Assembly (NCBI GenBank): GCA_003141525.1
Contig: PLML01000092.1
Location: forward strand, 37,380-92,433
Source: Bacteroidales bacterium
Lineage (GTDB): Bacteria > Bacteroidota > Bacteroidia > Bacteroidales > VadinHA17
Direction: 5' to 3'
Length of the DNA stretch: 55,054 bases
Shown here: in pieces, positions 27,703 through 51,954 of the stretch
How positions within the stretch are numbered: the stretch's first letter is position 1
How the letters are laid out: each line of letters begins with the position of its first letter
Notes under the pieces: model-generated
Told to the model about the DNA's origin: nothing
What the model saw: the letters and a program-made list of their open reading frames with translations, nothing else
Database searches by the model: none
Translations under genes and position numbers: made by a program

Positions 27703-28866
27703 TTATAGCCACTGAATCAGTATAGAAACTATTATACCACCTAAAACAATCCAAATTATATCAACTTTGCTCACCAATAATACAAAAGCTACAAGTGCCA
27801 ACAATATATTAAAGAGATTCCAGTGAATACAAATTGTAAATCGATAGGTAACGATTACTAATAATCCTACGAAGGAACATAGAATTCCATTTATTACTTT
27901 ATTGAATTGAGGGTAAGTTCTCAGTTTATCAAAAAAGGGAATGGTACCCATTAGGATAAGGAATGATGGGGTAAAAACATATATGGTGGCAAGCAGACTT
28001 CCAAAAATACCAAAATGCATGTAGCCAAAGAAAGTTGCTGCAATGATAATAGAACCTGGTGTTACCTGACCAAGGATCGCGCCATCCATAAATGTGTGTG
28101 CATCAAACCAGCCATATAAATCAACCAACTCGTGGTACATAATTGGCATTGAAGCCAATCCACCTCCGAAGGAAAAGAGATCGATCCTTAACATTATGGT
28201 AGCTAATATGAAATACCCTCTGTCAAAAATAAAAAGAATCAATATGCTGATTCCTGTTAAAAACAATACCATGAGAAAAAACCAGAAAGTTCTTGATTTA
28301 ACTGATTTCTCAGATAGACTCAATTCTTTCCTTGATAAGAGAAGTCCTGACAGTCCGGCAATTAATAAGACCAAGGCAGGATGCAATCTGGTCAGGAACA
28401 AACCTGCGGCAACAGCTGAAATAATCCAGTCATTCACATTCCGGAAATTCTTTTTACCAAAAATGTATGCGGCGTTTGCTACAATAGCGACTATTATTAC
28501 TCTTAAGCCGGTTAATACTAATTCAACCCCCGATATGTTTTTAGTATGCTTATATAAGACTGATAAAATAAACATGATAAGAAAAGCAGGAAGTCCAAAT
28601 CCTATAAAACATACCACTGCACCTCTGATACCCTTTAGCTTCAATCCGATATATGCCACCAGCTGCATTATAATAGCTCCGGGAATTACCTGACAAAGTG
28701 CAAGTCCAGAATCAAAAGTATTAGAATCAAGCCATTTCTTTTTATCAACAACATTCTTTCTGACCTGAGCAAACATAGCTAAACCACCAAAGGCCGTCAG
28801 TCCCATCCAAAAGAATGATCGGAATAAATCAAGATAGGAAGGATTTTCTTTCTGGTTAATTAGCAT
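27703..28866 (-). CDS. chrA: Chromate transporter (CHR) family protein, long form
   Basis: A 387-residue polytopic protein of the CHR family with two homologous halves. The first half has SFFWMGLTAFGGLAMFAQVR and CQVIPGAIIMQLVAYIG; the second has DLFSFGGGLASMPIMYHELV and GAILGQVTPGSIIIAATFFG. The FGG and PG motifs are hallmarks. Members export chromate or sulfate-like oxyanions; the natural substrate in an anaerobe with a sulfur island could differ. It stands alone, with its start 326 nt from the divergent DUF134 gene. Confidence 0.92.
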   Translation of the reverse strand: MLINQKENPSYLDLFRSFFWMGLTAFGGLAMFAQVRKNVVDKKKWLDSNTFDSGLALCQVIPGAIIMQLVAYIGLKLKGIRGAVVCFIGFGLPAFLIMFILSVLYKHTKNISGVELVLTGLRVIIVAIVANAAYIFGKKNFRNVNDWIISAVAAGLFLTRLHPALVLLIAGLSGLLLSRKELSLSEKSVKSRTFWFFLMVLFLTGISILILFIFDRGYFILATIMLRIDLFSFGGGLASMPIMYHELVDLYGWFDAHTFMDGAILGQVTPGSIIIAATFFGYMHFGIFGSLLATIYVFTPSFLILMGTIPFFDKLRTYPQFNKVINGILCSFVGLLVIVTYRFTICIHWNLFNILLALVAFVLLVSKVDIIWIVLGGIIVSILIQWL

Positions 28867-29192: not shown

Positions 29193-29588
29193 ATGGCACG
29201 TAATAAAAAAGAAAGGCTTATTCAAATGGCACCAAATTATTGCGGATTTAAGCCACAGGGGATTCAATCCAAGCCTGGTTCAGAAGTATCAATAAATTTT
29301 GAAGAATATGAAGCGTTGAATTTATGCGATTATGAATTATTGAATCAGTCTGAAGCTGCAAAATTGATGAATATTTCACGACCTACATTTACCAGAATAT
29401 ACGAAAGTGTGCGCCGGAAAATTGCCAGAGCATTTATAGAAGGAAGTTGCATAAAGTTTGAAGATGGCAATTCAACTGTTTCTGACTGGCTAAAATGCAA
29501 TAACTGTCAGATAAATTTTACTGTTTCAGACAAGTCAGATAATTTCTGCCCGATATGTAAAACACAAGTTCTAACCGAAAACAAATGA
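29193..29588 (+). CDS. DUF134 family DNA-binding protein (first copy)
   Basis: A 131-residue predicted helix-turn-helix regulator of the DUF134 family. YCGFKPQGIQSKPGSEVSIN and FEEYEALNLCDYELLNQSEA open the protein, and the HTH is AAKLMNISRPTFTRIYESVR. The C-terminus carries a zinc-ribbon (CNNCQ...CPICKT). Two palindromes upstream are shared in motif with the second DUF134 gene at 36674, so both likely repress themselves. Its stop overlaps the start of the NifX-like gene (ATGA), indicating a translationally coupled pair. Confidence 0.92.
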   Translation: MARNKKERLIQMAPNYCGFKPQGIQSKPGSEVSINFEEYEALNLCDYELLNQSEAAKLMNISRPTFTRIYESVRRKIARAFIEGSCIKFEDGNSTVSDWLKCNNCQINFTVSDKSDNFCPICKTQVLTENK

Positions 29589-29905
29589 TAATGATCATAG
29601 CCATAGCCACAAGTGAAAACCATTTAAAAGCAATTGTTGATCCGCATTTTGGCAGATGCGACTGGTATTGCCTTTACGATACTGAAACCAAAAAAAGTTC
29701 ATTTATTGAAAACCCAGTGCGTTACCATCAGCAACAAGCCGGTTGCGATGCTGCACTATTCTTAATTGAAAAAGGAGTTAAAATGGTCGTTGCTGGTCGA
29801 TTTGGATCTAAAGTTATTGATGTTTTCAAAACCAATAATGTGCAGATGATTATCCCTCAGGCACAACAGACCATTGCAAAAATTATTAATTCTTTTATTT
29901 CGTGA
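29585..29905 (+). CDS. NifX/NifB-like (dinitrogenase Fe-Mo cofactor biosynthesis family) protein, first copy
   Basis: A 106-residue protein of the NifX/NafY/ORP fold. The pattern IAIATSENHLKAIVDPHFGRCDWY at the start and ALFLIEKGVKMVVAGRFGSKVI in the middle are typical. In nitrogen fixers such domains hold Fe-Mo clusters; in sulfate reducers the related orange protein (ORP) holds a Mo-Cu sulfide cluster. No nitrogenase genes occur here, so an ORP-like Mo or Cu role is more plausible. It is coupled to the DUF134 gene. Confidence 0.9.
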   Translation: MIMIIAIATSENHLKAIVDPHFGRCDWYCLYDTETKKSSFIENPVRYHQQQAGCDAALFLIEKGVKMVVAGRFGSKVIDVFKTNNVQMIIPQAQQTIAKIINSFIS

Positions 29906-30682: not shown

Positions 30683-31030
30683 ATGAATACACAGTACCAC
30701 CTAAAAGGCCGCATTTGGTTAGAAATTGAGAATAAAACTTTTATTGGTGAAGGCAAAGCAAACTTGCTTAGAAAGACAGCCGAACTAGGATCCCTTCGTA
30801 AAGCTGCAGGCGCATTGGAGATGTCATACCGGCAAGCCTGGTACAGCATCAATCAAATGAATAAATCAGTCGATAAACCTGTTATTTTGCTCCATCGTGG
30901 TGGGAAAAAAGGAGGCATAGCTCACATAACTGAATTTGGAGAAGAAATTCTTAATACTTTTGAAAAATCCCGAAAAGAATTCGAACAGTTCCTAATGATT
31001 CAAACCATTATCCTGAACAAGCATTCCTGA
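30683..31030 (+). CDS. ModE-like winged helix regulator without molybdate-binding domain
   Basis: The 115-residue protein matches the N-terminal DNA-binding part of ModE: KGRIWLEIENKTFIGEGKANLLRKTAE, then LGSLRKAAGALEMSYRQAWYSI (the SxxxAAxxLxMSYRxAW signature) and the wing GGKKGGIAHITEFGEEIL. Full ModE has two C-terminal TOBE/Mop domains that bind molybdate; these are missing, as in several single-domain relatives. The next gene is a TonB receptor whose upstream region has a ModE-like palindrome. I infer regulation by Mo or W status, perhaps with the sensing part elsewhere. Confidence 0.9.
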   Translation: MNTQYHLKGRIWLEIENKTFIGEGKANLLRKTAELGSLRKAAGALEMSYRQAWYSINQMNKSVDKPVILLHRGGKKGGIAHITEFGEEILNTFEKSRKEFEQFLMIQTIILNKHS

Positions 31031-31143: not shown

Positions 31144-33117
31144 ATGAACAAAATTTTTACGGTGGCATTTTTCACGATGATTGGATTAAAAGGCTTCACA
31201 CAAACAGTTACTGATACCTCTTCTATTTTACATAAAGTTTACACATTAGGTGAAGTGAATATAAGCGCCACTGTCGACAAGTCGACTATCGATGCTGCCG
31301 AAATGCAGAAATACAATGCAAAGGATGTAAGCAGTGCCTTAAGGACTCTTCCTTCCCTTGTAATCAGTGAAAACGGTTCACGAAATGAAAGTACGATCTA
31401 TCTGCGCGGATTTGATATCAGGAGTGTGCCGGTATTCATGGATGGCATTCCTGTCTACGTTCCATATGATGGCTATGTTGATCTCGCACGTTTCACCACT
31501 TACGACATATCCAAAATCGATGTAGCCAAAGGTTTTTCCTCAATGACCTTCGGGGCCAATACGATTGGTGGTGCAATTAACCTTGTTGGAATGAAGCCCA
31601 TTCAAAAGATGGAGTTGAACGCGAAGCTCGGAGCCACGAGCGGAAAGGGATACGAGACTAAGATCAACCTGGGCAGCAACCTTGGCAAAGTGTACATCCA
31701 AACAGGATTTTCTCTGCTTCAGAGACAGTATATACCACTATCGGCAAATTTTGATGCAACAACCCTGGAGACAGATCACCATCGTGACAATTCATACCAG
31801 AAGGATATAAAAGGCAGTGTCAAATTAGGTTACACCCCCAATGCTACCGATGAATACAGCATCAATTATCAGTACTCACACGGAACCAAGGGAAATCCTG
31901 TGTACCTGGGAACGGATAAAAATACCAGAGTACGCTACTGGCAATGGCCCTACTGGGATAAGCAGAGCATTTATTATATATCAAGAACAAAGATCGGTGA
32001 AAGATCTGATCTGAAAGTCCGTGCATACTATGACCAGTTCAAGAATGAGCTCAGCAGCTTTGACAACAATACCTATTCCACCCAGAACAAAGCTTCTTCA
32101 TTCAATAGTTTATATGATGATTATACTTTAGGCGGTAATCTTGAGTTTGCCACCGACTGGAAAGACAAAAACCGTCTGAAAGTATCTCTGCACGCAAAAA
32201 ATGATAACCACAGCGAACATAATGAAGGTGAGCCGGTCCGTCATTTTGCTGACAATACTTTTTCTCTGGGAATTGAAGATGTTTATAAGCCGGGCAGCAA
32301 GCTTAGCTTTATTCCCGGCATAAGTTATAATCTCAGAAAAAGCCTGCGGGCTGAAGACTATAACTCAACCGACTCTACTATCAGTAATTATCCCAAAAAC
32401 CAGAATGATGCACTCAATGCACAATTGGCTACTTATTACAAGATTTCAAATGCAATAAACCTCAGCTTCAATATTGCCTTCAAAAGCCGGTTTGCCACAA
32501 TGAAGGACCGCTATTCATACAGCATGGGCACCGCAATCCCCAATCCTGACCTTCAATCCGAAACTGCTCTCAATCTGGAACTGGCATCAACCATTGAAAT
32601 TGCTGACAAGCTGAATTTCCGTCCCGAACTTTTCTATAGCTACCTGTACAATACCATACAAATGGTAAGCAATGTGCAGGGGGATCTTTCTCAGATGCAA
32701 AATACTGGCGAATCTGTATTTAAAGGAATTGATTTAAGCTTTGTCTATAAGCCAGTTTCAATTTTAAATATCTATGCTGCTTATTCGTATATTCAGCGCA
32801 AAAACATAAGTAATCCCGAAATTCTCTTTACTGATGTTCCCAATAATAAACTTTTTGCCTCCGTTGAATACACCGTTGTCAGAAAATTGATGATCAACCT
32901 TTTCGGGGAATATGATTCCGAACGAAACAATGCCAGCGATGGCACAAGGGTTTCTCCGGGATACTTTGTAATGAATGGTCAGGTGTCATATCTTTTTGCA
33001 CACTATTTCACAGTTGAAATCGGGGTGAACAATATTTTTGATAAAAATTATACAATTCAGGAAGGTTATCCTGAAGCAGGACGAAACTTCTATGCCGCAA
33101 TATATTTCAATCTGTAA
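31144..33117 (+). CDS. TonB-dependent outer-membrane receptor
   Basis: A 657-residue outer-membrane receptor with a signal peptide ending about GFTQ (residue 20). The plug domain (about 30-150) shows the TonB-box-like TLGEVNISATV, SSALRTLPSLVISENGSRNE, IYLRGFDIRSVPVFMDGIPV and FGANTIGGAINL. The barrel ends with NNIFDKNYTIQEGYPEAGRN and the terminal aromatic FYAAIYFNL. It lacks the SusC-type N-terminal extension. Next to ModE-like and DUF364 genes, it probably imports a Mo/W or other metal chelate; the substrate is inferred from context only. The DUF364 gene follows after 11 nt. Confidence 0.93.
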   Translation: MNKIFTVAFFTMIGLKGFTQTVTDTSSILHKVYTLGEVNISATVDKSTIDAAEMQKYNAKDVSSALRTLPSLVISENGSRNESTIYLRGFDIRSVPVFMDGIPVYVPYDGYVDLARFTTYDISKIDVAKGFSSMTFGANTIGGAINLVGMKPIQKMELNAKLGATSGKGYETKINLGSNLGKVYIQTGFSLLQRQYIPLSANFDATTLETDHHRDNSYQKDIKGSVKLGYTPNATDEYSINYQYSHGTKGNPVYLGTDKNTRVRYWQWPYWDKQSIYYISRTKIGERSDLKVRAYYDQFKNELSSFDNNTYSTQNKASSFNSLYDDYTLGGNLEFATDWKDKNRLKVSLHAKNDNHSEHNEGEPVRHFADNTFSLGIEDVYKPGSKLSFIPGISYNLRKSLRAEDYNSTDSTISNYPKNQNDALNAQLATYYKISNAINLSFNIAFKSRFATMKDRYSYSMGTAIPNPDLQSETALNLELASTIEIADKLNFRPELFYSYLYNTIQMVSNVQGDLSQMQNTGESVFKGIDLSFVYKPVSILNIYAAYSYIQRKNISNPEILFTDVPNNKLFASVEYTVVRKLMINLFGEYDSERNNASDGTRVSPGYFVMNGQVSYLFAHYFTVEIGVNNIFDKNYTIQEGYPEAGRNFYAAIYFNL

Positions 33118-33128: not shown

Positions 33129-33941
33129 ATGATTATTGAGCAGACATACAATCTTGTAAAAACCAGGTATAAAAACCAGATTGAAAAACTGACAATATCT
33201 GATGTAAGGATTGGCATATATCTGACAGCTGTCCGCTTATCCGATAACAGTTTTGGTACTTCTGCTACCATACCCGATGACCAGCCATTTTGCTCAAAAA
33301 GCAACAGGGATTTTGGTGATTTCACACCTCTTAAAATCAGAGGACAAAAGGTACTCGATATTCTTGAAACTAAAAAAGAGACAGGTATACTATCATCCTT
33401 AAGAATAGCTGTTTTAAATGCAATTTCTTCAAAGATAATTTCATCCGGTAACTATCGGATCATTGAAGATTTAGATCCCATACAACTGGTTGATCTTGCT
33501 TCCCGTAAAACAATAACAATTGTCGGGGCATTTCATTCATACATCCGCAAAATTTCAGATACGGCGAATAAATTATTTGTACTGGAGAGGAATGAAGAGG
33601 CCCTTACATTGGAATATAAAAAATTCTTTGTCCCGGCCGAGGAGTATAAGACTATACTTCCTGTCTCGGATATTATTATTATAACAGGTCAGACACTTGT
33701 CAACAAGACAATTGATGACCTGTTGCTGGCAATTTCACCCGGTACTCAGGTAATAGTAACTGGTCCGTCAGCCAGCATCATTCCGGATATTTTATTTGAG
33801 AATAAAGTAAGCATTATCGGGGCTTCCAGAATAACAAAACCTGAAATTCTGTTTGATATCGTCAGTGATGGTGGTACAGGTTTTCATCTGTTTGAATATT
33901 GTGCCTGCAAAATTTGTATTTTAAAAGATGATCAGGCATAG
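33129..33941 (+). CDS. DUF4213/DUF364 putative metal-chelation protein
   Basis: A 270-residue cytoplasmic protein. The N-terminal part (about 1-95) is DUF4213-like (DVRIGIYLTAVRLSDNSFGTSATIP). The C-terminal DUF364 Rossmann-like domain has ITIVGAFHSYIRKI, IIITGQTLVNKTIDDLL, VIVTGPSASIIPDILFENKV and a conserved GG near the end. The family is annotated as possible heavy-metal chelation, from structure rather than biochemistry. In other genomes I recall it beside metal or molybdate-type uptake genes. Here it lies between a TonB receptor and a membrane-ATPase fusion, and may release or process the imported chelate. Confidence 0.88.
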   Translation: MIIEQTYNLVKTRYKNQIEKLTISDVRIGIYLTAVRLSDNSFGTSATIPDDQPFCSKSNRDFGDFTPLKIRGQKVLDILETKKETGILSSLRIAVLNAISSKIISSGNYRIIEDLDPIQLVDLASRKTITIVGAFHSYIRKISDTANKLFVLERNEEALTLEYKKFFVPAEEYKTILPVSDIIIITGQTLVNKTIDDLLLAISPGTQVIVTGPSASIIPDILFENKVSIIGASRITKPEILFDIVSDGGTGFHLFEYCACKICILKDDQA

Positions 33942-35655
33942 ATTAAGTGAAAAATGGATTAAGGCATCCATTATCGGAACTATCTGGGCCGCATCAGAGA
34001 TTGTTCTCGGCAGTTTTCTCCATAACCTGAAGGTGCCATTCAGTGGTAATATACTTACTGCGATTGGAATTATTATTCTCGTATCAATAAGTTATACATG
34101 GACTGAAAAAGGCCTTTTCTGGCGCTCCGGATTAATATGTGCATTAATGAAAACGATGTCGCCAAGCGCTGTGATTTTTGGTCCAATGATAGCCATTTTC
34201 ACAGAATCGTTTCTGCTTGAGTTATCAGTGAGGCTTTTTGGCAGAACCGTTGCCGGATATGCAATAGGTTCAATGCTGGCTATGTCGTGGAACCTGGTGC
34301 AAAAAATTCTGAATTTTATTATATTTTACGGGTCAAATATTATAGAAGTCTATAGCAGCCTTTTAAAACTTGCACAGAAACAACTTAATATCCAGACTGA
34401 CATAGTCTGGTTGCCTATAATTATATTGTTGATTGTCTATGCTTTATTCGGACTTTTGGCTGCAGTTACAGGAATAAGAGTCGGCAACAAAATGGTAAAA
34501 CAGCCGGTTTCTGATTCTCCTTCTATTCTTGATCAGCCATTGCAGGATGTCGAACATAAGACAGAAAATGAATTTAAATATTCTATTACCTGGCTTTTAA
34601 TAAATATTAGTCTGATTATCAGTTCATTTATCTTATTGATCTTAACAACTTGGGTTATATGGAGCCTTGCGATAACAGGAATTGTAATTATCTGGTCTGT
34701 AAGGTATAAACGTGCTTTGCATCAGCTTTTAAAACCTAAGTTCTGGATACTTTTTGTATTTATTACACTGGTTACTGCATTTGTATTTACGAAGGCCCAA
34801 GCAGGTGAGAATTCATTGTTGAAAGGACTGCTAACAGGAGTACAAATGAATTTCAGGGCTGTTGTCATCATTGTAGGTTTTTCTGTACTGGGAACGGAAT
34901 TGTACAATCCGGATGTGAGGAATGTCTTTCTGAAGACCTCTTTTAAAAATCTTCCTCTTGCTCTCGAACTTTCAGCTGAAAGTTTGCCTTTGTTTATAGC
35001 TAATATCCCAGATTTTAAAACTCTCCTCAGAAATCCTGTCTTAGTATTTTATCGGGTAATTTCACATGCTGAAGGGCGATTGTCTGAAATAAAGGGAAAT
35101 ACTGCTTCGGCTAAGAAAATATTCATAATAACGGGATCAATTGGCGAAGGAAAAACAACTTACGTTAAAAAGCTAATCGAAATTTTCAGAAAATATAATA
35201 TTAAATGCGGAGGAATCTTATCAGAACGAGTGTTGACCAATTCCCAAACAACCGGTTATGATCTGGTAAATATAGAAACTGGAGAAAAAGAGACTTTTCT
35301 CAGACAATATGAAGAATGTGGATCTGAAAGAATCGGAAGATTCACAATCTGTCCAAAAGGTCTAGCGTTGGGAAACGCTATCTTAAACTCATTGATTTTA
35401 TCTGAAAACACATTTGTCATTATAGATGAAATTGGTTTACTTGAGATCAGGAATAAGGGTTGGTTTGATTGCCTTAATGACCTGGTAGAAAACTCCGGAA
35501 ATCATATTTTACTAATTGTCCGGGATACATATATTCATGAGGTGAAGAACAAATGGAATCTTAAAGAGGCAATTATCTTTAATATCAATGAGATTGATTA
35601 CCAGAATGCTGGCTTGCATATCATTGAAAATATTAATTCCAAATCAGGCAATTGA
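33928..35655 (+). CDS. Fusion of ECF-transporter-like membrane domains with THEP1-type NTPase
   Basis: The 575-residue protein has three parts. Residues about 1-190 form six or so helices resembling an ECF S component (KASIIGTIWAASEIVLGSF, GPMIAIFTESFLLELSV). Residues about 215-390 have further helices and an amphipathic tail (SLLKGLLTGVQMNFRAVVII) that recall the EcfT/CbiQ coupling subunit. Residues about 395-570 are a THEP1-like P-loop NTPase: GSIGEGKTTYVKKL (Walker A), FTICPKGLALGNAIL and FVIIDEIGLLEI (Walker B). It overlaps the DUF364 gene by 14 nt. I infer an energised inner-membrane importer in one polypeptide for the substrate of the TonB receptor. The ECF parallels are weak and need structure prediction. 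Confidence 0.78.
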   Translation: MIRHRLSEKWIKASIIGTIWAASEIVLGSFLHNLKVPFSGNILTAIGIIILVSISYTWTEKGLFWRSGLICALMKTMSPSAVIFGPMIAIFTESFLLELSVRLFGRTVAGYAIGSMLAMSWNLVQKILNFIIFYGSNIIEVYSSLLKLAQKQLNIQTDIVWLPIIILLIVYALFGLLAAVTGIRVGNKMVKQPVSDSPSILDQPLQDVEHKTENEFKYSITWLLINISLIISSFILLILTTWVIWSLAITGIVIIWSVRYKRALHQLLKPKFWILFVFITLVTAFVFTKAQAGENSLLKGLLTGVQMNFRAVVIIVGFSVLGTELYNPDVRNVFLKTSFKNLPLALELSAESLPLFIANIPDFKTLLRNPVLVFYRVISHAEGRLSEIKGNTASAKKIFIITGSIGEGKTTYVKKLIEIFRKYNIKCGGILSERVLTNSQTTGYDLVNIETGEKETFLRQYEECGSERIGRFTICPKGLALGNAILNSLILSENTFVIIDEIGLLEIRNKGWFDCLNDLVENSGNHILLIVRDTYIHEVKNKWNLKEAIIFNINEIDYQNAGLHIIENINSKSGN

Positions 35656-35821: not shown

Positions 35822-36205
35822 TTAATTATGACTGCAGGAATGGCCATGCTCCTGATGAGCCTCATGTTGATGGCAGCTGCTGCCACTATCCTCTACTAAC
35901 CCCGAAAGATAGAGTTTTACAACTTCTGCGGCATCTCCGGAGCAACCGCGAATTACTTCTATTCCGCTATTATTAAGTACGTTAATGGCACCTCCGCCAA
36001 TACCGCCTGCAAGCATTACTGTAACGCCATCTGAGGCAAGTACTGATGCAATATCTGACTTACATCCGCACCCTTCCGGTGACCCTACACTCTTCATTTC
36101 AACTATTTCATTTTTATCTGATATAGTAAATACACCATACGATTCACAATGGCCAAAATGGCTGTCTATCTGATTATCCGACGTTACTGGTACTGCAATT
36201 TTCAT
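35822..36205 (-). CDS. NifX/NifB-like protein with His-rich C-terminal tail (second copy)
   Basis: A 127-residue protein of the same NifX/ORP family as that at 29585. The core MKIAVPVTSDNQIDSHFGHCE and DGVTVMLAGGIGGGAINVLN is typical of the ORP-like branch. The last 20 or so residues (SSCHQHEAHQEHGHSCSHN) are rich in His and Cys and likely bind a soft metal. It is third in a leftward operon after DUF134 and OsmC genes, with a 15-nt gap from osmC. Confidence 0.92.
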   Translation of the reverse strand: MKIAVPVTSDNQIDSHFGHCESYGVFTISDKNEIVEMKSVGSPEGCGCKSDIASVLASDGVTVMLAGGIGGGAINVLNNSGIEVIRGCSGDAAEVVKLYLSGLVEDSGSSCHQHEAHQEHGHSCSHN

Positions 36206-36220: not shown

Positions 36221-36619
36221 TTATTTTTGAGTTGTAATTACTTGAAATTCAGGTTGATTATTAATTGTTTTCTTCACCAGGCATAATTCTGCCGCATTTA
36301 TAACTGCTTCCTTATATTTTTCAGGGAATCCTAACGGTAACTGGATATCAAGTTTGAACAGAGAGGGTGTTTTTTTCTCATTATCAAATTCCATCGTTTG
36401 AATGATTTTAATCCCCTCAGTTGATATCTGGCGTCTGTCACAAAATGATTTTACGTAAATCCCTGCACATGTTCCGATTGATGCAAGGAATAATTCAAAT
36501 GGAGCAGGCGCACTATTACCACCTCCGTTATCAAGTGGCTGATCGGTCCTGATTGAATGTCCGTTAATATGTGCTGTTATCACTTTGCCGCCGTCAAAAG
36601 TTACTTCCATATTATTCAT
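36221..36619 (-). CDS. OsmC family protein
   Basis: A 132-residue OsmC/YhfA-like protein. The family pattern SAPAPFELFLASIGTCAGIYVKSFC provides the two conserved cysteines (GTC and SFC) used for peroxide or thiol chemistry in the OsmC/Ohr group, with the central helix ending at CDRRQ. The C-terminal second half (ELCLVKKTINNQPEF) has the usual third conserved position. The place between a DUF134 regulator and a NifX-like protein suggests a role tied to sulfide or thiol-bound metal rather than general peroxide stress; that is inference. Confidence 0.9.
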   Translation of the reverse strand: MNNMEVTFDGGKVITAHINGHSIRTDQPLDNGGGNSAPAPFELFLASIGTCAGIYVKSFCDRRQISTEGIKIIQTMEFDNEKKTPSLFKLDIQLPLGFPEKYKEAVINAAELCLVKKTINNQPEFQVITTQK

Positions 36620-36673: not shown

Positions 36674-37099
36674 TCAAAGCTCATTTTTAATGGGTTGATT
36701 CATTCTTATTAATTCTTTCATACCATATACTTTGCAGTCTTTGCATCTGGAATGATTTTCAATGCCCTGAATTAATTTATAACATTTTTTACATCGGTAC
36801 CAATCATGTTCAAATTGAAAATTTCCACCTTCAATCTCAATTGACTTACCTTCTACGAATGCTTTTGCAATTGTCTTTAATGCTCTGTTATAAATCCGCG
36901 TAAATGTAGGTCTCGATATATTCATCTGCTTAGCAGCAAGATCCTGTGATAGCAGATCATAATCGACTAATCTGATACTTTCAAATTCTTCATACTTGAG
37001 AATAAGTGGCCCTATATCACACTTTTGCATCCCATAAGGTTTGAAACCTTCCATTTTTGGTGGATTACATATTTTCCTGCATTTCTCTGGACGTGCCAT
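36674..37099 (-). CDS. DUF134 family DNA-binding protein (second copy)
   Basis: A 141-residue paralogue of the 29193 product. ARPEKCRKICNPPKMEGFKP opens it, YEEFESIRLVDYDLLSQDLAAKQMNISRPTFTRIY is the HTH region, and CKKCYKLIQ...CKDCKVYG forms the C-terminal zinc ribbon. The recognition helix NISRPTFTRIY is identical in both copies, in agreement with the shared TGAAC-N4-GTTCA palindrome upstream of each gene. It is first in the leftward DUF134 - OsmC - NifX operon. Confidence 0.92.
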   Translation of the reverse strand: MARPEKCRKICNPPKMEGFKPYGMQKCDIGPLILKYEEFESIRLVDYDLLSQDLAAKQMNISRPTFTRIYNRALKTIAKAFVEGKSIEIEGGNFQFEHDWYRCKKCYKLIQGIENHSRCKDCKVYGMKELIRMNQPIKNEL

Positions 37100-38938: not shown

Positions 38939-40012
38939 TCAACAGCATCTTAGTACTAGAGGATTCTCCGGTATTCCAATATCTTCTCCATTCCGTCCTT
39001 TGTATTTTTTCCCAGAGTCGTAGATTATTCCCAATTTGTCAAGTAAAGGTTCAACTGCCACCTGATGAGTCTGCAAACCTATATCCCATGGATTATAACC
39101 TAAAAGTAGTCCTGCCAATTCTTCATAGGTCAATACCGGAATTCCATAACCATTTTCACCATAAGTTTTGCTTTTCATTTCGGCAATTACATATTGCCAC
39201 CGGTCGAGAAAAAAGGTGCAGCCTGGGCAGTTGGCAATTATAAGATCGGGTTTAAAAGGCTGCATCGAATCGAATTTCTTTTTTGAATTAGTGACAGAGT
39301 AAGATCTGTTCGATTTCAGCAGGTATTGCCTGAACCCGAATCCACAGCAATGGCGTCGTTCGGGATAGTCCACTTGCTTTCCTCCCCATTCGTCAATTAA
39401 GCCAGCCAGCACATAAGGATATTCAGCGCCTCCGATACCTTCTTGTGGAAAAATCTTAGCATAATGACAGCCAATATGATCAACAACTTTAATAGGTTCT
39501 TCGCTATTTTGATTAATCAACCTGAATTTTGCTTTTGCTGCAATCTCTTTACGGAATTTGTAAATAATATCGCTTGCATGAACAAGGTTTTTTGGTATTT
39601 CAAATGTTTTGCCGGTGGCCCGTTTTAATGCAACACGTGTTTTTTGTTCTGTTTCCGGGAAATGATTCCAGGTATCCATTACCTCAACATAAATACCAAA
39701 TGAGGTAACGCACGATGCAATAAAATTTTCATACCCGGCTTCGTTCATCAGGGAAAATTGGCGAGCTACCACGGTCATAATTGTTTCGAAAGGAATAATA
39801 CCCGAATGGTAGGCAATACCCGTACAGGTTGTCTGTCTTGCATCGTCATAAATATCTTTCTCCAGTTCATTTCTAAGGATATTCAAATACAGATTTTCCG
39901 CTGCCGGGAAGAAATTCTGCCTGATGCAACTGCGTGCAAAATAATAATGATCATCAGCTATCTCTTTCTGGTATGCTGCCCAGATTTCATTTTTCCTTGT
40001 CTTCATGAACAA
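38939..40012 (-). CDS. hdrB: HdrB-like subunit (CCG domain protein)
   Basis: The 357-residue protein is a heterodisulfide-reductase B-like subunit, the part that binds noncubane [4Fe-4S] clusters and handles disulfide or sulfur substrates. The C-terminal CCG motif is complete: a cysteine in VDHIGCHYAK, RHCCGFGFRQ, and ANCPGCTFFLDRWQ. The N-terminal one is degenerate: TTCTG stands where CCG is expected and only single cysteines (SCIRQ, ASCVTS) surround it, so one cluster may be lost or altered. It ends with a Cys-Cys pair. It is eighth in the dsrE-tusA-hdr operon. Confidence 0.88.
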   Translation of the reverse strand: MFMKTRKNEIWAAYQKEIADDHYYFARSCIRQNFFPAAENLYLNILRNELEKDIYDDARQTTCTGIAYHSGIIPFETIMTVVARQFSLMNEAGYENFIASCVTSFGIYVEVMDTWNHFPETEQKTRVALKRATGKTFEIPKNLVHASDIIYKFRKEIAAKAKFRLINQNSEEPIKVVDHIGCHYAKIFPQEGIGGAEYPYVLAGLIDEWGGKQVDYPERRHCCGFGFRQYLLKSNRSYSVTNSKKKFDSMQPFKPDLIIANCPGCTFFLDRWQYVIAEMKSKTYGENGYGIPVLTYEELAGLLLGYNPWDIGLQTHQVAVEPLLDKLGIIYDSGKKYKGRNGEDIGIPENPLVLRCC

Positions 40013-40041
40013 ATTTATTTATTAAGCAGCAAATGTGGTAG

Positions 40042-40728
40042 TTATTTGTTATACAGATATTTAAAATAATCATCATTCCCATCATTAAATTCAATGTTTA
40101 GTTCTTTTGCCTTGCCAGAAGAATATTTTTCGATCTTTTCAAACCGTTGGGTTGCACCGGTTTCATCAAATATCTTTTTAAGATCATTAAGCGATTCCTG
40201 AGATATATTGCGAAGTGTCCCGGATTGTTCTTTATTATAGCTTGTTCCAAGACGTTCCAGTATTGACTCCTTGTTTTGTCTTAACCAATCCCATATAGGC
40301 CCCTGTTCCGGATACATTTCAGTATCAATTTCATCAATAAATACACAATAACCATATTTCAAAATATGTTCTCCCACAATCCGTTTAACAGCCAATTGTT
40401 TTCTTCCCTGTTGACTCTCAATAAAAAAGCCTGTTTCAATAGATAATGCCCGTAATGCCTGAATAATATAACAGGGTGTATTTCCACGAGGACATCGTGT
40501 TTTACATGAAAGGCATTCACCACACATCCATATTGTATCGCTCTTAAGCAACTTTTCCAGCTCAGCTTCATCTTTTTGTTGTACAATATTGACAACTATA
40601 CGCGGGTCGTAATCGCTCACTTCAGCAGCAGGGCATATTGCAGTGCAAACTCCGCAGTTGAAACAAGATTTCAACCCTTCAAGGTAGCGGACATCTTTCT
40701 CAAGTTCTTTGTACAAATCTTTCATCAT
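40042..40728 (-). CDS. hdrC: HdrC-like iron-sulfur subunit
   Basis: A 228-residue protein has two classical [4Fe-4S] motifs, CFNCGVCTAICPA (about residues 21-33) and CGECLSCKTRCPRG (about 69-82), with the helical HdrC body after them. It wires HdrA flavin electrons to HdrB. The C-terminal 90 residues (after YCVFIDEID) are longer than in methanogen HdrC. Its start overlaps the qmoC-like stop by 4 nt, so translation is coupled. Confidence 0.92.
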   Translation of the reverse strand: MMKDLYKELEKDVRYLEGLKSCFNCGVCTAICPAAEVSDYDPRIVVNIVQQKDEAELEKLLKSDTIWMCGECLSCKTRCPRGNTPCYIIQALRALSIETGFFIESQQGRKQLAVKRIVGEHILKYGYCVFIDEIDTEMYPEQGPIWDWLRQNKESILERLGTSYNKEQSGTLRNISQESLNDLKKIFDETGATQRFEKIEKYSSGKAKELNIEFNDGNDDYFKYLYNK

Positions 40729-41873
40729 TTCTTATACGCTGCATTCTGTAAATTTGATAAATACACTGCAAAAGGTCGGTAGGCAAGGTGTGCCCATTTA
40801 GAGAATGGCACTTCAATCATCAGCATTGGAACCAGGATCATAAAATGAATTACATAGACATAATAAGTCGCATATGGAAGTCCTGATATCCTGAAAATAT
40901 GTACAAGTATGCCTGTAATAACGGTTCCTGAAAGAAGAAAAAGGAAGGTCCAGTCAGTGAAATGTGTGTGTTTGTTGTTCTCCTGGTCTCTTTTTATTCT
41001 TCCATAAACGAAAAATATCAGTCCAAAAGAAAGTCCAAAAGTGGCATAATATCCAAAAATCCTTTGAGGATGCCACCAGGGATGAATAAAATCTGTCTGA
41101 AACCATTCAAGAAATACCACGATCATTGTAAATAATAACACATAACCTGACATTAGCAACCAGTGAGATATCCAATAGGGACTTGCTTTTATATTAAGCC
41201 TCCCAAGTCTTGTTTTCCGATTGCTTTTAGTGAACCGCCATTGTGTTACGAAATGAAAAATAAGCTTCCAGAACTGTGTAAAGTAAAGCTTTAAGGGCAC
41301 TCTAATTTTCTTTTCACCATGAAAAACCATTAAATACATCCTTAAAATATTGGATATCAGGAAAAAAGACAGAATGCCTGCCATAATCCAGTCTCCTATT
41401 TCTATTTGTTTCCATGGAGCAAAGGTATTGAGCTTAACACCTCCCTGAGCAGTAAGTTCTGTGGTCATTGGTCCATGGAATAATATGAAAAGCACAAGCA
41501 CCATGGCTGCCAAAAATCCGATGGCTGCAAGTTCCCATGCCTTTGAAGTATAGAATTTCCGGGAAAGTCCAGTCCAGTCATATTTTGAGGTCTGCCATCG
41601 GCGCAGTGACATCATCAGTTCTCCGGGTTGTGCATCTCTGGGGCATGAACTGCTGCATTCACCGCAATAGTAACATAACCAGGGATCCAATGAAATTTGA
41701 ATCTCATTATCAAGACCAAGTACACTGTATCTCACCATTTTCCTGGGGAATGAATTTTCTTCATCCGACATTGCACAAACCGCGGTGCATGTACCACAGT
41801 TATAGCATGCGTTCATGTCAAATGCACCATATTTTTTTAATATCTCAGAAAATCCAGGATTTAATTCAGGCAT
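40725..41873 (-). CDS. qmoC: QmoC-like membrane subunit (HdrC/HdrE-type fusion)
   Basis: A 382-residue protein has an N-terminal HdrC-like region with two clusters (CYNCGTCTAVCAM and CYYCGECSSSCPRD, the first lacking the last proline) and then about six transmembrane helices (from LAAIGFLAAMVLVLFILF onward) of the HdrE/NarI-gamma cytochrome b type. The order is that of QmoC from sulfate reducers, which links a soluble Hdr-like complex to the menaquinone pool. Histidines in the helices (SHWLLMSGYVLLF, HFMILVPMLM) could bind heme b. It lies between hdrA and hdrC. Confidence 0.9.
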   Translation of the reverse strand: MPELNPGFSEILKKYGAFDMNACYNCGTCTAVCAMSDEENSFPRKMVRYSVLGLDNEIQISLDPWLCYYCGECSSSCPRDAQPGELMMSLRRWQTSKYDWTGLSRKFYTSKAWELAAIGFLAAMVLVLFILFHGPMTTELTAQGGVKLNTFAPWKQIEIGDWIMAGILSFFLISNILRMYLMVFHGEKKIRVPLKLYFTQFWKLIFHFVTQWRFTKSNRKTRLGRLNIKASPYWISHWLLMSGYVLLFTMIVVFLEWFQTDFIHPWWHPQRIFGYYATFGLSFGLIFFVYGRIKRDQENNKHTHFTDWTFLFLLSGTVITGILVHIFRISGLPYATYYVYVIHFMILVPMLMIEVPFSKWAHLAYRPFAVYLSNLQNAAYKK

Positions 41874-41884
41874 CTCAATTTTTA

Positions 41885-44161
41885 TTAATCGTTCTTTGCA
41901 TAAAGCAACTCTTGATGGACAACTGAATGATTCAACGCATAAGTATAATATTCGTCTTCATTAATAAAGTTTGTGTCCGATACATAACCATATTTTCGCA
42001 ACGACATCAGAAGATAAGTGACCTCTTTGGAAGGGAGGCTTATTTCCGCGGCAATTTCAGGAATTGATTTCGGTTCGGTCTCCAGTGCCTTTAAAATCTT
42101 TTTACTATTATCATCAAGTTTTTCCACTTTTAAATCCCACTCAGCATCTTGCTTTTTGATTCCTGATTTCTGCTCATCCGCAACATTTTGTTCTTTAAAT
42201 ACCACTTCTTCAGAAATGGCATCAATCATTGATTCGATCTCGCTGTTCGTATAACCAAGCAACTCAATTGCATCTTCATGGCAAGAAGGAAGGCAGGCAC
42301 CACAACCTTTGCATGCTGCGTTAACAATTCCTGCAATAGTTTTTCCTTCAGACAATGCTTTTACTACTGCCCCAAACGTGCAAATCTCTTCGCATTTGCC
42401 ACACCAGGTGCATTTTTCTTTATCTATTATTGCCAGGTTTGGTTCAAGCGTTATTGTTCCCTTGCTTATAAGTGAACTTGCCTTTGCTGCAGCAGCAAGA
42501 GAGGAAGTCATGGTCTCCGTGATATTCCTGGGACTCTGGCATGCTCCTCCGATAAATATCCCATCCATCACTGTTTCAACCGGCCTTAGTTTCGGATGAA
42601 TTTCATTAAAGAATTTGTCGGATCCTTGCGGAATCTTCAACACCTGTTTTAAGCTATCATTATTCCTGGCAACCATTCCCGTTACGAGTACTACCAGATC
42701 AGAATTGATAACTATTTCCATATTCTCCGTCAGGATGTCATTTAATCTGACTTCCAATTTCTCGTTAGACATTTGAACTACAGGATTTTTGCCTTCTTCA
42801 AACTGGAGGAAAATATTACCTTTTCTTGAAGCTTCATCATATAAAACTTCCTGCTTCCCATAAGTCCTGATACCTTTATGCAAATGGAAAGTTTTAATAT
42901 CGCTGTATTTATCACACAGTTTGAGTGATGCATGAATTGCCGCAGTACAGCAATAGCGTGAGCAATATGTCCTTTCTCCTGAAGGTTGTCTGCTACCTAC
43001 ACAATAGATGAAGGCAATATTTCTTATTTTTCTATTCTTCCAAACCAAGTCATCAGGATTTAATTCAATAAGCCTTTCCAGTTGCTGAAGTGTGATCACT
43101 TCTTTAATTTCCCCATAGCCAAATTCGCTTTTCATGGGTTCATATGCGTCATATCCTGTATTGACAAGAATTGCTCCTGCATTGACAGATATCTTTTCAG
43201 GTTTTTGATCAAGGTCTATACTGCCTATGCAAATATCGGCGCATTTTCCGCACCTGTTGCAAACCGACATATCAACAGCAGGTCTGCCTGGCAAGGAATT
43301 TTGATTATGTTTATACAAAGCTTTCCGCTCTGTAAGTCCGAAATTAAATTCATCAGGAAGAGAAACCGGACAAACATTGATTGAGTCCATAAATTCTTTT
43401 TCTGAAACATCTCCCTTTACATACCGTGGTTCGACATTTATGACGATTTCAAAATTTCCCACATTCCCCTTCATTCCAGCTATCTGAGTTCCTGTAAAAA
43501 GGGTTATGTTTGATCTTTTCTTGATCTCACGGAATAACTTTCCAACTATTTCATTACCGGTGGAGTTGCCTTGAAAAACCTTTCCCAATTGGGCAACGTG
43601 TCCGCCTATAAAATGATCCCTTTCAATAAGATAAACCTGAGTACCCATGTCAGCAAGTTCAATTGAAGCTCTCATCCCTGAAATGCCTGCTCCAACTACA
43701 ACAGAGGTATTTACAGTCTCCATTTCAATAGATTTAAGGTCCCTGAACCTGCGTGCTTTTTCAATCCCGGCAATAACTAATTTAATTGCTTTGCGGGTAG
43801 CCTCTGCAGGTTTATCGGAATGTGCCCAAGAGCTTTGTTCTCTTATATTAACCTGGATATAATTGTACGGATTCAATCCAGCACGACGGGCGACATCCCT
43901 GAAAGTCATCAGGTGAAGTTTTGGAGAACATGAGGCAACCACTATGGCATCAAGGTTTTTTTCTTTAATATCTTCCACCATACTTATTTGTGAAGCATCG
44001 GAGCATGTAAACATTGTTGTTTTAACCAGGCTTACTCCTGGATGGTCATTGATGACATTTTTTACTGCTTCGACATTTACATAGTCGGAGATGTTCCCTC
44101 CGCAATGACAGATATAAACTCCCACTCTGTGCTTTCTTATATCTTCTTTTGTCCCGTTCAT
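41885..44161 (-). CDS. hdrA: HdrA-like flavoprotein with C-terminal winged-helix extension
   Basis: This 758-residue HdrA homologue begins with VGVYICHCGGNISDYV, followed by the FAD-binding GAGISGMRASIELADMG (about residue 157). Ferredoxin-type motifs CNRCGKCADIC (about 305), CTWCGKCEEIC and CKGCGACLPSC (about 590-625) follow, along with the thiol-rich CSRYCCTAAIH segment. Residues about 680-735 (DDNSKKILKALETEPKSIPE ... LMSLRKYGYVSD) look like a winged helix not usual in HdrA. Its start overlaps the previous hdrA stop (ATGA). Confidence 0.92.
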   Translation of the reverse strand: MNGTKEDIRKHRVGVYICHCGGNISDYVNVEAVKNVINDHPGVSLVKTTMFTCSDASQISMVEDIKEKNLDAIVVASCSPKLHLMTFRDVARRAGLNPYNYIQVNIREQSSWAHSDKPAEATRKAIKLVIAGIEKARRFRDLKSIEMETVNTSVVVGAGISGMRASIELADMGTQVYLIERDHFIGGHVAQLGKVFQGNSTGNEIVGKLFREIKKRSNITLFTGTQIAGMKGNVGNFEIVINVEPRYVKGDVSEKEFMDSINVCPVSLPDEFNFGLTERKALYKHNQNSLPGRPAVDMSVCNRCGKCADICIGSIDLDQKPEKISVNAGAILVNTGYDAYEPMKSEFGYGEIKEVITLQQLERLIELNPDDLVWKNRKIRNIAFIYCVGSRQPSGERTYCSRYCCTAAIHASLKLCDKYSDIKTFHLHKGIRTYGKQEVLYDEASRKGNIFLQFEEGKNPVVQMSNEKLEVRLNDILTENMEIVINSDLVVLVTGMVARNNDSLKQVLKIPQGSDKFFNEIHPKLRPVETVMDGIFIGGACQSPRNITETMTSSLAAAAKASSLISKGTITLEPNLAIIDKEKCTWCGKCEEICTFGAVVKALSEGKTIAGIVNAACKGCGACLPSCHEDAIELLGYTNSEIESMIDAISEEVVFKEQNVADEQKSGIKKQDAEWDLKVEKLDDNSKKILKALETEPKSIPEIAAEISLPSKEVTYLLMSLRKYGYVSDTNFINEDEYYTYALNHSVVHQELLYAKND

Positions 44162-46872: not shown

Positions 46873-46899
46873 ATCAAAATTTAAAGTAAATTAACACAC

Positions 46900-47325
46900 T
46901 TATTCAGTTCTCAGTTCATTTTGTATGCTTCCCATTTCCGTTAGTGAATTCATAAAAGCTTTCATGTGACTTACAAAAGGGTCAGCACATACTGAACAGA
47001 TTGCTGCCATTTTAATTCTTGCAACATTAATTCCTTCAATTTTCATCGCTTCCTGTGCAGATTTAATTGTTACAGATGTAATATCGGAACAATCAGAGCG
47101 ATATGCGCAATCCGTGCCATCGCTGGCAATAAATACACCATCAATACCTCTTTTTAGTGCATGTAAAATCCACCTGGGTTTTATACTGCTGGTACAGGGG
47201 ACCGTAATGTTGTAAACTGAAGGAGGATAATGTTTCTTCAACAATCCGGCAAGATCAATTGCCGGATCTGAAATTCTCTCCGAAGAAAACACCAGTATCT
47301 TTGGTACAAATTGTACATCAGCCAT
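46900..47325 (-). CDS. MvhD-like (hydrogenase delta / HdrA-partner) iron-sulfur protein, degenerate
   Basis: A 141-residue MvhD-family protein. The core is recognisable (NITVPCTSSIKPRWILHALK, GIDGVFIASDGTDCAYRSDC, and CSVCADPFVSHMK). The N-terminal cysteine pair normally found in the family's CxxC (CNWC) position is absent, replaced by VFSSERI, so it may hold a [2Fe-2S] cluster with other ligands or none. In methanogens MvhD links hydrogenase to HdrA. Here no hydrogenase is near, so it likely mediates contact between HdrA and the sulfur-carrier proteins. It follows tusA by 11 nt. Confidence 0.82.
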   Translation of the reverse strand: MADVQFVPKILVFSSERISDPAIDLAGLLKKHYPPSVYNITVPCTSSIKPRWILHALKRGIDGVFIASDGTDCAYRSDCSDITSVTIKSAQEAMKIEGINVARIKMAAICSVCADPFVSHMKAFMNSLTEMGSIQNELRTE

Positions 47326-48176: not shown

Positions 48177-48854
48177 ATGAATATTGAATGTAAACTGTGT
48201 GATATAAAATCGAAAGCTGCCTCAAAATTAAGCGATGAAGAAATAGAAAAGCTTTCCTTTAACTGTGCACTGGTAAAATTCCGTAAAGGGGATTCTTTAA
48301 TCAGGCAGGGTACCTTTTCTACTAATGTTGCTTATTTACGTAGTGGTTTGGCAAAAATTCACATTGAAGGCCCTTATCATGAGCAAATTGTTCGAATTGT
48401 TAAAGCACCCAGTTACCTTGGATTACCAACAACTTTTGGTGATAAAATAAATCAATATTCAGTTACAGTCATTGAAGTAGCCGAAGTCTGTTTTATTGAT
48501 ATTGAGACCTTCCGGTATCTATTGAAAACAAATCATGATTTCTCGTATGAAATCATGCTGGAATTATGCAGAAATGAACTGGAAGTGTTTTGCAGATGTG
48601 CTAACAGAACTCAGAAACAGATCAGAGGTAAAATTGCTGATTTTCTATTAGAGTTTTCTGATAAAATTTACAACTCAAGTGTATTTACTCTACCTCTCAC
48701 ACAAGAAGATTTAGGAAATCTTGTTGACTCAAGTAGAGAAAGCATCAGCCGAGTATTAGCTGAGTTTGATAGAGACGGAATAATTAAGATTGTTGGAAAG
48801 AAAATTGAAATCCTAAATAAGAAATCCTTATTGCTCATTAGCGCTAATGGCTGA
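48177..48854 (+). CDS. Crp/Fnr family regulator (first of two)
   Basis: A 225-residue regulator with a cNMP-barrel (LVKFRKGDSLIRQGTFSTNVAY, GLPTTFGDKINQYSV) and a helix-turn-helix LTQEDLGNLVDSSRESISRVL. The recognition helix S-R-E-S-I-S-R matches the Crp/Fnr type that reads TGTGA or TTGAT, consistent with the sites beside it. N-terminal cysteines ECKLC could sense redox or sulfide. It is divergent from the dsrE-tusA-hdr operon and precedes a second regulator; together they likely coordinate both sulfur operons. Confidence 0.93.
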   Translation: MNIECKLCDIKSKAASKLSDEEIEKLSFNCALVKFRKGDSLIRQGTFSTNVAYLRSGLAKIHIEGPYHEQIVRIVKAPSYLGLPTTFGDKINQYSVTVIEVAEVCFIDIETFRYLLKTNHDFSYEIMLELCRNELEVFCRCANRTQKQIRGKIADFLLEFSDKIYNSSVFTLPLTQEDLGNLVDSSRESISRVLAEFDRDGIIKIVGKKIEILNKKSLLLISANG

Positions 48855-48952: not shown

Positions 48953-48972
48953 AACTCCATCAACTCATATCC

Positions 48973-48980: not shown

Positions 48981-48997
48981 CCGTCAAACTGGTTAGG

Positions 48998-49716: not shown

Positions 49717-51954
49717 ATGACAAATAGAAGGCAATTCATCAAAATTTCAATCGCTGGTGCCGGTGCCATGACATTAGGGGCAGGAGCCTTAAAAGCCATG
49801 GAATGGATATCTAAACCTGAAAACAGTGGAAAAATAACAGTGGACCTGAAACGTACTCCAACTTATTGTGAAGTATGTTTCTGGAAATGCGCAGGATGGG
49901 TTTACAAAACTTCTGAGGGTAAAATTTGGAAAATCATAGGCAATGATGAAGACCAGCATTGTAATGGACGCTTTTGCCCTCGTGGCACAGGTGGTGTTGG
50001 AATGTATTATGATGAAGACAGGTTGAAAACACCTCTGATAAGAGTAAAAGAACGCGGCAAGCAGGTCTTTCGTGAGGTATCATGGGATGAAGCTCTTGAT
50101 TATATTTCAGTTAAAATGAAGGAGATTTCTTCAAAATATGGTCCAGAAAGTATGGCACTCTTCACTCATGGTTCAGGCAGTGCCTATTTTACAAATTTAT
50201 TAAAAGCATATGGTTCATCAAATATAGCTGAACCCTCATATGCACAATGCCGCGGACCGCGGGATGAAGCTTTTCTTGCAACATTCGGAGAAGAAGTTTA
50301 TTCACCGGAAATAACAGACATTCGCGACACAAAATGCCTTGTATTGATCGGAGCACATATTGGTGAGAATATGCATAATGGCCAGATACAGGAAATGTCG
50401 GATGCGATTGATAAAGGAGTCACAATAATTACTGTAGACCCAAGGTTTTCAACTGCTGCCGGAAAATCAAAATATTGGCTTCCTATTAAACCTTCTACCG
50501 ATATTGCATTGCTTCTGTCATGGATACATGAAATTATCTATAACGGTTATTACGATAAAAATTATGTCGAAAAATATTGCAGTGGGTTTGATAAACTGAA
50601 AGAACATGTCAGGGATTTTACTCCCGAATGGGCTTACGGGATTACAACCATTAAACCAGATCTGATCAGAAAAACTGCAAAGGAAATGGCGAATGCATCT
50701 CCTGCTGTCTTAATTCATCCCGGAAGACATGTTACGTGGTACGGGGATGATACCCAGAGGGTTCGGGCAATTGCAATTCTAAATGCTCTTCTTGGTTCCT
50801 GGGGCAGACGTGGAGGTTTTTACAGACCTGCAAAATTCAATGTTCCATCAGCTAAAATTCCAAAATACCCTGAAGCCAAGAAGAGTTGGACAGACGCATT
50901 CCCTGGCAAATTTCCGATAGCAAGTTCTCCGGTTTCAAATGCTCTTATTGATGCTTCAATTCCTGAAAATAAACCTGGCTTTTTAATAAAAGGGTGGATC
51001 GTTAACGCAACAAACCTGGTCTCATCAATTCCAGGTCAGGCAAATACACTAAAAGCAATCCAGAACCTTGATCTGTTAGTGTCTGTGGACACCATGCCAA
51101 TGGAGATCACCGGATGGGCCGATGTTGTCTTACCTGAGTGTACCTATCTTGAAAGATACGATATGCTCAGAATAAGTCCCCATCGTAAACCTGCAATAGC
51201 ATTGAGAATGCCAGCCGCTGAGCCAATGAACAGTACCAGATCAGGATACAATATTGCCCGGGGACTCGCTTTAAAACTTGGACTCGAAAGCTATTTCCCT
51301 TTTGAAAAACAGGAAGAATTACTTGACTGGCAACTTAAACAGTCGGGTTCTTCACTTGAAGAAATGCAGCGAATCGGGGTAAAAACGAATGCAAGGGAAG
51401 CAGATGATCTTTATTTTGCTGAAAATGAAAATGTATCTTTCCCAACAGATTCAGGCAAGATAGAATTGTATTCCAAAGCTTTTGAAGACGCCGGATTTGA
51501 TCCTCTTCCTAAGTATGTAGCACATGAAGAACCCCCGGAAGGTTTCTACCGTTTGATCTATGGCCGTGCTCCAATGCATACTTTCGGAAGAACTTCAAAT
51601 AACCCGAATCTGACTGACCTTATGCATGAAAATTCAGTTTGGATAAATCCAAAAGTATCAAAAGAGTGGGGTCTGGTTAACGGTCAGTATATCCGGCTCA
51701 AAAACCAGGATGGAATTCTTTCCGATTTTAAAATTAAAATTAGAGTAACTGAACGTATCAGGTGGGATTCAATTTATATGGTACATGGTTTTGGTCATGG
51801 TCAGAAGCAGCTTAAGCGTTGCTTTGGCAAAGGTGCCAGCGATACTCAGTTGATAACAAAAGTGCTTGTTGACCCTCTGATGGGAGGAACAGGGATGAGA
51901 TCGAATTTTGTAACATTTGTCACTGAAAAGTCAGAGAAGGAGGTTGCATCATGA
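49717..51954 (+). CDS. Molybdopterin oxidoreductase, PsrA/PhsA (polysulfide/thiosulfate reductase) type
   Basis: A 745-residue DMSO-reductase-family catalytic subunit. A twin-arginine signal (TNRRQFIKISIAGAGAMTLG) directs it to the periplasm. The N-terminal [4Fe-4S] cluster uses Cys51, 54, 58 and 86 (CEVCFWKC ... RFCPRG), and Cys178 in PSYAQCRGP is the likely metal ligand. Cofactor motifs IGAHIGENMHNGQIQEM, LLGSWGRRGGF and GRAPMHTFGRTSNN follow. Family relatives reduce polysulfide, thiosulfate or tetrathionate, or work in reverse. The psrB start overlaps its stop (ATGA). It may contain Mo or W; the 29-37 kb island and the TorD-like gene at 19583 are possible helpers. Confidence 0.9.
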   Translation: MTNRRQFIKISIAGAGAMTLGAGALKAMEWISKPENSGKITVDLKRTPTYCEVCFWKCAGWVYKTSEGKIWKIIGNDEDQHCNGRFCPRGTGGVGMYYDEDRLKTPLIRVKERGKQVFREVSWDEALDYISVKMKEISSKYGPESMALFTHGSGSAYFTNLLKAYGSSNIAEPSYAQCRGPRDEAFLATFGEEVYSPEITDIRDTKCLVLIGAHIGENMHNGQIQEMSDAIDKGVTIITVDPRFSTAAGKSKYWLPIKPSTDIALLLSWIHEIIYNGYYDKNYVEKYCSGFDKLKEHVRDFTPEWAYGITTIKPDLIRKTAKEMANASPAVLIHPGRHVTWYGDDTQRVRAIAILNALLGSWGRRGGFYRPAKFNVPSAKIPKYPEAKKSWTDAFPGKFPIASSPVSNALIDASIPENKPGFLIKGWIVNATNLVSSIPGQANTLKAIQNLDLLVSVDTMPMEITGWADVVLPECTYLERYDMLRISPHRKPAIALRMPAAEPMNSTRSGYNIARGLALKLGLESYFPFEKQEELLDWQLKQSGSSLEEMQRIGVKTNAREADDLYFAENENVSFPTDSGKIELYSKAFEDAGFDPLPKYVAHEEPPEGFYRLIYGRAPMHTFGRTSNNPNLTDLMHENSVWINPKVSKEWGLVNGQYIRLKNQDGILSDFKIKIRVTERIRWDSIYMVHGFGHGQKQLKRCFGKGASDTQLITKVLVDPLMGGTGMRSNFVTFVTEKSEKEVAS

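Follow-up and report, generated by a model that had tools for sequence, protein, structure and literature searches.

ECF transporters contain two ABC-type ATPase (A) subunits. What is the function of a protein in which an S-like and a T-like membrane block share one chain with an NTPase of the THEP1 group? Such a protein is encoded in the 55,054-nucleotide stretch of Bacteroidales DNA analyzed here, denoted the window. Its gene is the last of an apparent operon that begins with a ModE-type regulator and continues with a TonB-dependent receptor and a DUF364 protein (Table 1). The gaps between the four genes are 113, 11, and -14 bp, the last of these being an overlap of the DUF364 and fusion genes.

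Table 1. Features of the window and of the split module operons, with positions counted from the first nucleotide of the window or of the locus named.
Feature	Location	Positions	Strand	Remarks
ModE-type N-terminal HTH regulator	Window	30683..31030	+	Without molybdate-binding domain; TIGR00637 (NCBIfam) 4.7e-18, below cut-off
TonB-dependent receptor	Window	31144..33117	+	Pfam plug 8e-21, barrel 7e-21
DUF4213 + DUF364 protein	Window	33129..33941	+	PF04016 3e-34, PF13938 8e-11
Three-part fusion (S-like, T-like, THEP1 NTPase)	Window	33928..35655	+	Intact ORF, 575 aa
S-like membrane block	Window	33928..34512	+	Residues 1-195 of fusion
T-like membrane block	Window	34567..35103	+	Residues 214-392 of fusion; without Ala-Arg-Gly coupling motifs
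THEP1/NTPase_1 domain	Window	35113..35643	+	Residues 396-572 of fusion
P-loop GSIGEGKTT	Window	35134..35160	+	Starts at residue 403; sequence pattern
Walker-B-like IIDEIG	Window	35419..35436	+	DEIG at residue 500; sequence pattern
PhsA-type molybdopterin oxidoreductase	Window	49717..51954	+	PF00384 1.3e-35, PF01568 1e-10
FeS subunit of PhsA-type enzyme	Window	51951-52484	+	Pfam PF13247
NrfD subunit of PhsA-type enzyme	Window	52504-53445	+	Pfam PF03916
RF01055 riboswitch	L052	7211-7339
RF01055 riboswitch	L053	6853-6992
RF01055 riboswitch	L054	7822-7965
RF01055 riboswitch	L055	7481-7620
RF01055 riboswitch	L056	3438-3573
RF01055 riboswitch	L060	7342-7478

The fusion gene was initially annotated as a three-part chain carrying an NTPase of the THEP1 group, and this description is borne out by the intact reading frame, the Pfam match of the NTPase, and the full-length homologues. 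A scan of genome contigs yielded 18 homologues in independent Bacteroidota MAGs or contigs. The order of S, T, and NTPase is kept over the whole length in 17 of them, and the eighteenth (L016) ends at a contig edge. Conservation of the order in 17 of 18 independent homologues indicates that the fusion is real, and neither an assembly artefact nor a chance joining. Identity to the homologues is 54-72% in the membrane part compared with 47-70% over the whole protein. The two helical membrane blocks make up the first 395 residues, with hydrophobic helical stretches at residues 1-190 and 220-325 and a linker at approximately 193-214. Within the S-like block, W10, K12, E24, G28, H32, N33, P37, F38, W65, R66, K75, and SPSA 78-81 are invariant in the Bacteroidales, and E24, G28, L31, P37, K75, and G135 are invariant across all 39 aligned members. 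A search of plasmids found no relative.

The Pfam family NTPase_1 (PF03266) covers residues 399-554 of the fusion (3.8e-20, 72.8 bits against a gathering score of 23.9) and is matched in 18 of 19 homologues, the remaining one being truncated. The domain has the fold of THEP1, with Foldseek matches to 1ye8 (8e-5) and 2i3b (9e-7) and a profile match to 1ye8 of 8.5e-12. The domain shares its fold, its P-loop, and its DE[I/V]G motif with the THEP1/NTPCR/NTPase_1 family; the P-loop is retained in all 13 NTPases checked, and the DE motif in 11. Known THEP1 members of solved structure are soluble NTPases that stand alone, whereas here the NTPase is fused to the S and T blocks or encoded in an operon with them.

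The fusion is one arrangement among several. Searched with a profile of the membrane part, 32 of 396 sampled Bacteroidota genomes, referred to as carriers, contain the S-like block, and its partners are combined in four architectures. The first (i) is the S-T-NTPase fusion of the window. In the second (ii), S, T, a TonB receptor, and the NTPase are four separate genes (L052, L053, L054, and L056); in the variants L055 and L060 the NTPase gene is not adjacent, and each of these two genomes has another S-T locus, which in G124 has an adjacent NTPase. The third (iii) begins with the NTPase and continues with S and then a short T-like tail (L058, L059, L061, L062, and L034). The fourth (iv) has S with a T-like tail and the NTPase as a separate neighboring gene (L063, L069, L106, and others), and at some loci of this class no NTPase gene is adjacent. 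Alignment of the T-like tails in (iii) and (iv) with the T family is weak (HHalign E 2e-4 and 3e-4, probability 40-47%). These rearrangements come directly from the computation, and the repeated re-fusion in differing orders strongly indicates that the three parts act together. At many loci of class (iv) (L035, L037, L043, L044, L045, L048, and L106), the S-T gene is directly preceded by a gene of 103-114 aa resembling AhpD/carboxymuconolactone decarboxylase.

The receptors connect the fused and split forms. By BLASTP, the window receptor matches those of all six split operons at 28-30% over the full length (3e-76 to 2e-59), and the next-best receptor in the set reaches 2e-7. Since this receptor family is common to the window and the six split operons, the fused and split forms appear to be versions of one type of system.

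Whether the membrane blocks are related to ECF transporters is best judged through the split forms. Here the S and T labels of the initial annotation receive weak support. On the window protein itself they find no match, the membrane part matching no Pfam family and no NCBIfam family being matched outside the NTPase region. The unfused relatives give matches at twilight level, all below the curated cut-offs. Split T proteins match TIGR02454 (ECF_T_CbiQ) at 3e-5 and 8e-5, and split S proteins match the ECF-S families PF09605 (Trep_Strep) at 2e-4, 8e-3, and 2e-2 and PF09819 (ABC_cobalt) at 5e-4. Split T also aligns with genuine EcfT of the same phylum (HHalign E 3e-4, probability 39-44%, all control pairs below 4%), and window T aligns with split T at 4e-6; window-type T alone reached no match to EcfT. 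Structure prediction had been put forward as a check on the membrane labels and did not bear them out. The model of the membrane part is confident (pLDDT 86, pTM 0.81), Foldseek returned no ECF structure for it, and the full model retrieved THEP1 only, such that structure lends the ECF label no support. Profile searches of the PDB, with either S or T as the query, returned nothing.

The coupling features of ECF transporters were also sought. The Ala-Arg-Gly motifs of T dock the ABC ATPases. These motifs are found in none of the T-like parts (0/19 fused and 0/6 split) and are present in the EcfT controls L078-L080. No ABC ATPase gene lies in the module operons examined, a remote, shared A subunit being conceivable. 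Since these defining features fail, the module is not filed as ECF. As in CbiMNQO and EcfAA'T-S, there are S-like (~200 aa) and T-like (~185 aa) membrane proteins, separate or fused; unlike those systems, the module has a THEP1 NTPase where they have ABC ATPases, a T without the docking motifs, and a TonB receptor in the operon. The S and T blocks are probably ECF-derived and likely ECF-like in their working. In four genomes (loci L078-L081), an ADP-ribosylglycohydrolase-like gene comes immediately after a fused EcfAA' and EcfT.

The position of the ECF matches below the cut-offs, together with the putative nature of the uptake function, would be in keeping with a sensor, an exporter, or another membrane NTPase that has no role in uptake. 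Such a role is quite improbable, as the TonB receptors encoded in the same operons imply uptake and the similarity of S and T points to importers.

If the module is an importer, what powers it? A different type of engine, as suggested in the initial annotation, is plausible given the lack of operon ABC ATPases and of docking motifs, the repeated fusion of the NTPase to S-T or its placement beside them, and the scarcity of canonical EcfT/CbiQ among the 32 carriers (present in 6, absent from 26). The NTPase could instead be a MobB-like enzyme that processes or traps a cofactor at the exit, with transport driven otherwise or by facilitated diffusion. MobB is a weaker relative of the NTPase, and the split operons L055 and L060 lack an adjacent NTPase gene, both in keeping with such a role; against it, the operons examined contain no ABC ATPase, and most architectures have the NTPase joined to S-T or next to it. 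This alternative is a credible if tentative possibility, an estimate that covers the engine question alone, and it is compatible with a cofactor as cargo.

The DUF364 protein gives a first indication of the cargo. Its proposed status as operon partner is confirmed by the overlap of 14 bp and by a related gene at 13 of 18 homologous loci, at 12 of which it is directly upstream of the fusion. The paper describing a DUF364 crystal structure proposed a pterin- or flavin-like ligand and a context of Mo/W transport (PMC2954201). At L018 the DUF364 gene appears to be in two ORFs (7106-8008).

The neighboring genes are summarized as follows. NapA-NapG-NapH adjoins L054-L056 and L060, DMSO-reductase and TorD-like genes adjoin L053, and PhsA-FeS-NrfD adjoins L063, L069, and L106. 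MobA adjoins L066 and is also found in G014; MocA, XdhC, and ModE adjoin L006 and L012. In the window contig, a MobA-type gene lies just beyond the window end. Among transport genes, modA over the cut-off is present in 0 of 32 carriers compared with 139 of 364 other genomes, and a WtpABC-like cluster occurs in three carriers, one being the window genome. In the latter it lies at L105 3939-9795 (G000:C122), followed by MoeA, MoaA, MoaC, and a MogA-like gene, with a binding protein whose score falls well short of the ModA cut-off.

MoeA is absent in 19 of the 32 carriers, and the same 19 have neither MoaC nor MoaE. These 19 also have no strong MoaA match, G014 being intermediate (8e-50). MoaC, MoaE, and MoeA were fully scored, and for MoaA five radical-SAM candidates were scored per genome, which makes the MoaA search partly unreliable; the argument therefore rests on the other three. 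Strong scores for G074, G148, G188, and G295 show that detection works within these families. Clear molybdoenzymes and MobA are nonetheless retained in ten of the 19 (G014, G031, G082, G116, G124, G132, G216, G224, G362, and G390), with G124 and G132 being single-contig genomes. Among 48 MoeA-less non-carriers from similar families, the same combination is found in one or two (G358 and G237, the latter with MoaA). The difference is significant when phylogeny is ignored (Fisher 4e-6 to 2e-5). PF01568 matches in frames of ~1000-1050 aa were excluded as molybdoenzymes and are probably ActB-type subunits, judging by length and weak score. With MobA and the enzymes kept and the early steps all missing, it is the pterin, not the metal, that such cells need from outside. 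About eight carriers, mostly of (iii) and (iv), have no clear enzyme of the DMSO-reductase family and no clear MobA (xanthine-oxidase family excluded), which counts against import of the cofactor.

Regulatory RNA provides a further line of evidence. In an unbiased Rfam scan of the module loci, each of the six split operons, which come from three genome families, had a Moco/Tuco riboswitch (RF01055) immediately upstream of its S gene, at 53-70 bits (gathering score 36 bits). None was found at the 31 other module loci or in the module-bearing half of the window (26000-55054). All six riboswitches are missing the P3 helix, though they adjoin NapA or DMSO-reductase genes, and Regulski et al. linked the P3-less form to the tungsten cofactor (PMC2408646).

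These results bear on a different large cofactor, such as cobalamin or heme, as the cargo. In favor of it, the receptors score best, among named families, against BtuB-like and heme-type ones, all below cut-off. No cobalamin riboswitch occurs at any locus, and the neighbors are molybdoenzymes and Moco genes, which makes import of this kind very improbable. Cobalamin was rejected as cargo because every riboswitch found is of the Moco type. The parallel to BtuB-BtuFCD is in layout, with an outer-membrane TonB receptor and inner-membrane uptake under a riboswitch; unlike that system, the module has another inner-membrane machine and a Moco-type rather than a cobalamin riboswitch.

The metal itself is a closer competitor. 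A TonB receptor is unexpected for a small oxyanion, which counts against import of molybdate or tungstate. Import of these ions or a chelate instead of pterin, with DUF364 serving metal chelation, would account for the ModE-like gene at the head of the operon and the missing canonical modA in carriers. It would also suit the association of DUF364 with Mo/W transporters (PMC2954201) and the control of modABC, too, by Moco riboswitches (PMC2408646). On the other hand, metal alone gives no cofactor to the ten carriers that have molybdoenzymes and MobA but no MoeA, MoaC, or MoaE, and the window genome already has its WtpABC-like system. Metal import is thus rather unlikely. Canonical molybdate import was the first candidate and was demoted after the carriers without MoeA and MoaC and the riboswitch came to light. 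The ABC importers ModABC, WtpABC, and TupABC share with the module a link to Mo metabolism and control by ModE or Moco riboswitches. They differ in that a ModA/WtpA-type binding protein and ABC permease are absent from the window operon, and in that carriers of the module include cells unable to build the pterin.

From these patterns we infer a cargo, a direction, and an energetic scheme. The module is probably a widespread, so far undescribed bacterial uptake system. The fusion is, on balance, likely to be the inner-membrane part of an uptake and salvage system for the Mo (or W) cofactor, the cargo being a molybdopterin-type pterin that already carries Mo/W or is to receive it. The TonB-dependent receptor would bring pterin from outside to the periplasm, where the S-like block would capture it and, as ECF transporters do, carry it through the inner membrane with the T-like block as scaffold. 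In place of ABC ATPases, the THEP1 NTPase would either drive the S/T cycle or modify and trap the arriving pterin by nucleotide chemistry. MobA or MocA and the local molybdoenzyme would then use the imported pterin, with DUF364 as a likely cytosolic partner in the window. Regulation would be through the ModE-like protein in the window, likely, and through the Moco-type riboswitch in the split operons.

Several observations count against import of the cofactor. The window operon has no riboswitch, the six riboswitches found are P3-less, and the similarity to ECF families stays below curated cut-offs and was not recovered by structure searches. Free Moco is highly unstable (PMC9370521, PMC9793310), such that what is imported may be a modified pterin or one derived from protein. 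The window genome has a complete Moco pathway (MoaA/C/E and MoeA) besides its WtpABC-like importer, which also counts against the reading and suggests that the module there is an accessory salvage route.

Cells are generally thought to be unable to import the Mo cofactor. The prevailing view is that Moco is made only de novo, C. elegans being the known exception (PMC9793310), and genomes with orphan molybdoproteins are a recognized open problem (PMC6147048). The module may be the first dedicated importer of finished Mo/W cofactor, combining a TonB receptor, ECF-derived S/T, and THEP1 and allowing respiration on scavenged cofactor without MoaA, MoaC, MoaE, or MoeA; this stronger claim, drawn from genomic patterns, is held at somewhat less than even confidence. 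If true, scavenged cofactor would support nitrate, sulfur, and DMSO-type respiration in such bacteria, and part of the orphan molybdoprotein genomes would be explained. Riboswitch-controlled, TonB-coupled salvage would make Moco a shared vitamin of microbial communities, and an ECF-type membrane pair would be able to work with a non-ABC NTPase.

The surroundings of the module in the window contain further genes. Flanking it on both sides are a pair of DUF134 (HTH) proteins and a pair of small NifX/FeMo-co-type proteins (29193-29905, 35822-36205, 36674-37099), with OsmC among the flanking genes (36221-36619). On the strand opposite to the module is a chromate transporter (27703-28866, PF02417, two halves on one chain). 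Between the module and the molybdoenzyme operon, a large heterodisulfide-reductase/Qmo-like FeS-flavoprotein cluster occupies 38939-47325 of the minus strand. Two consecutive CRP/FNR-type regulators (48177-49699) precede the molybdoenzyme and two YeeE/YedE-like membrane proteins (53489-54698) come after it, and the order PhsA-FeS-NrfD-YeeE-YeeE recurs adjoining the module at L063, L069, and L106.
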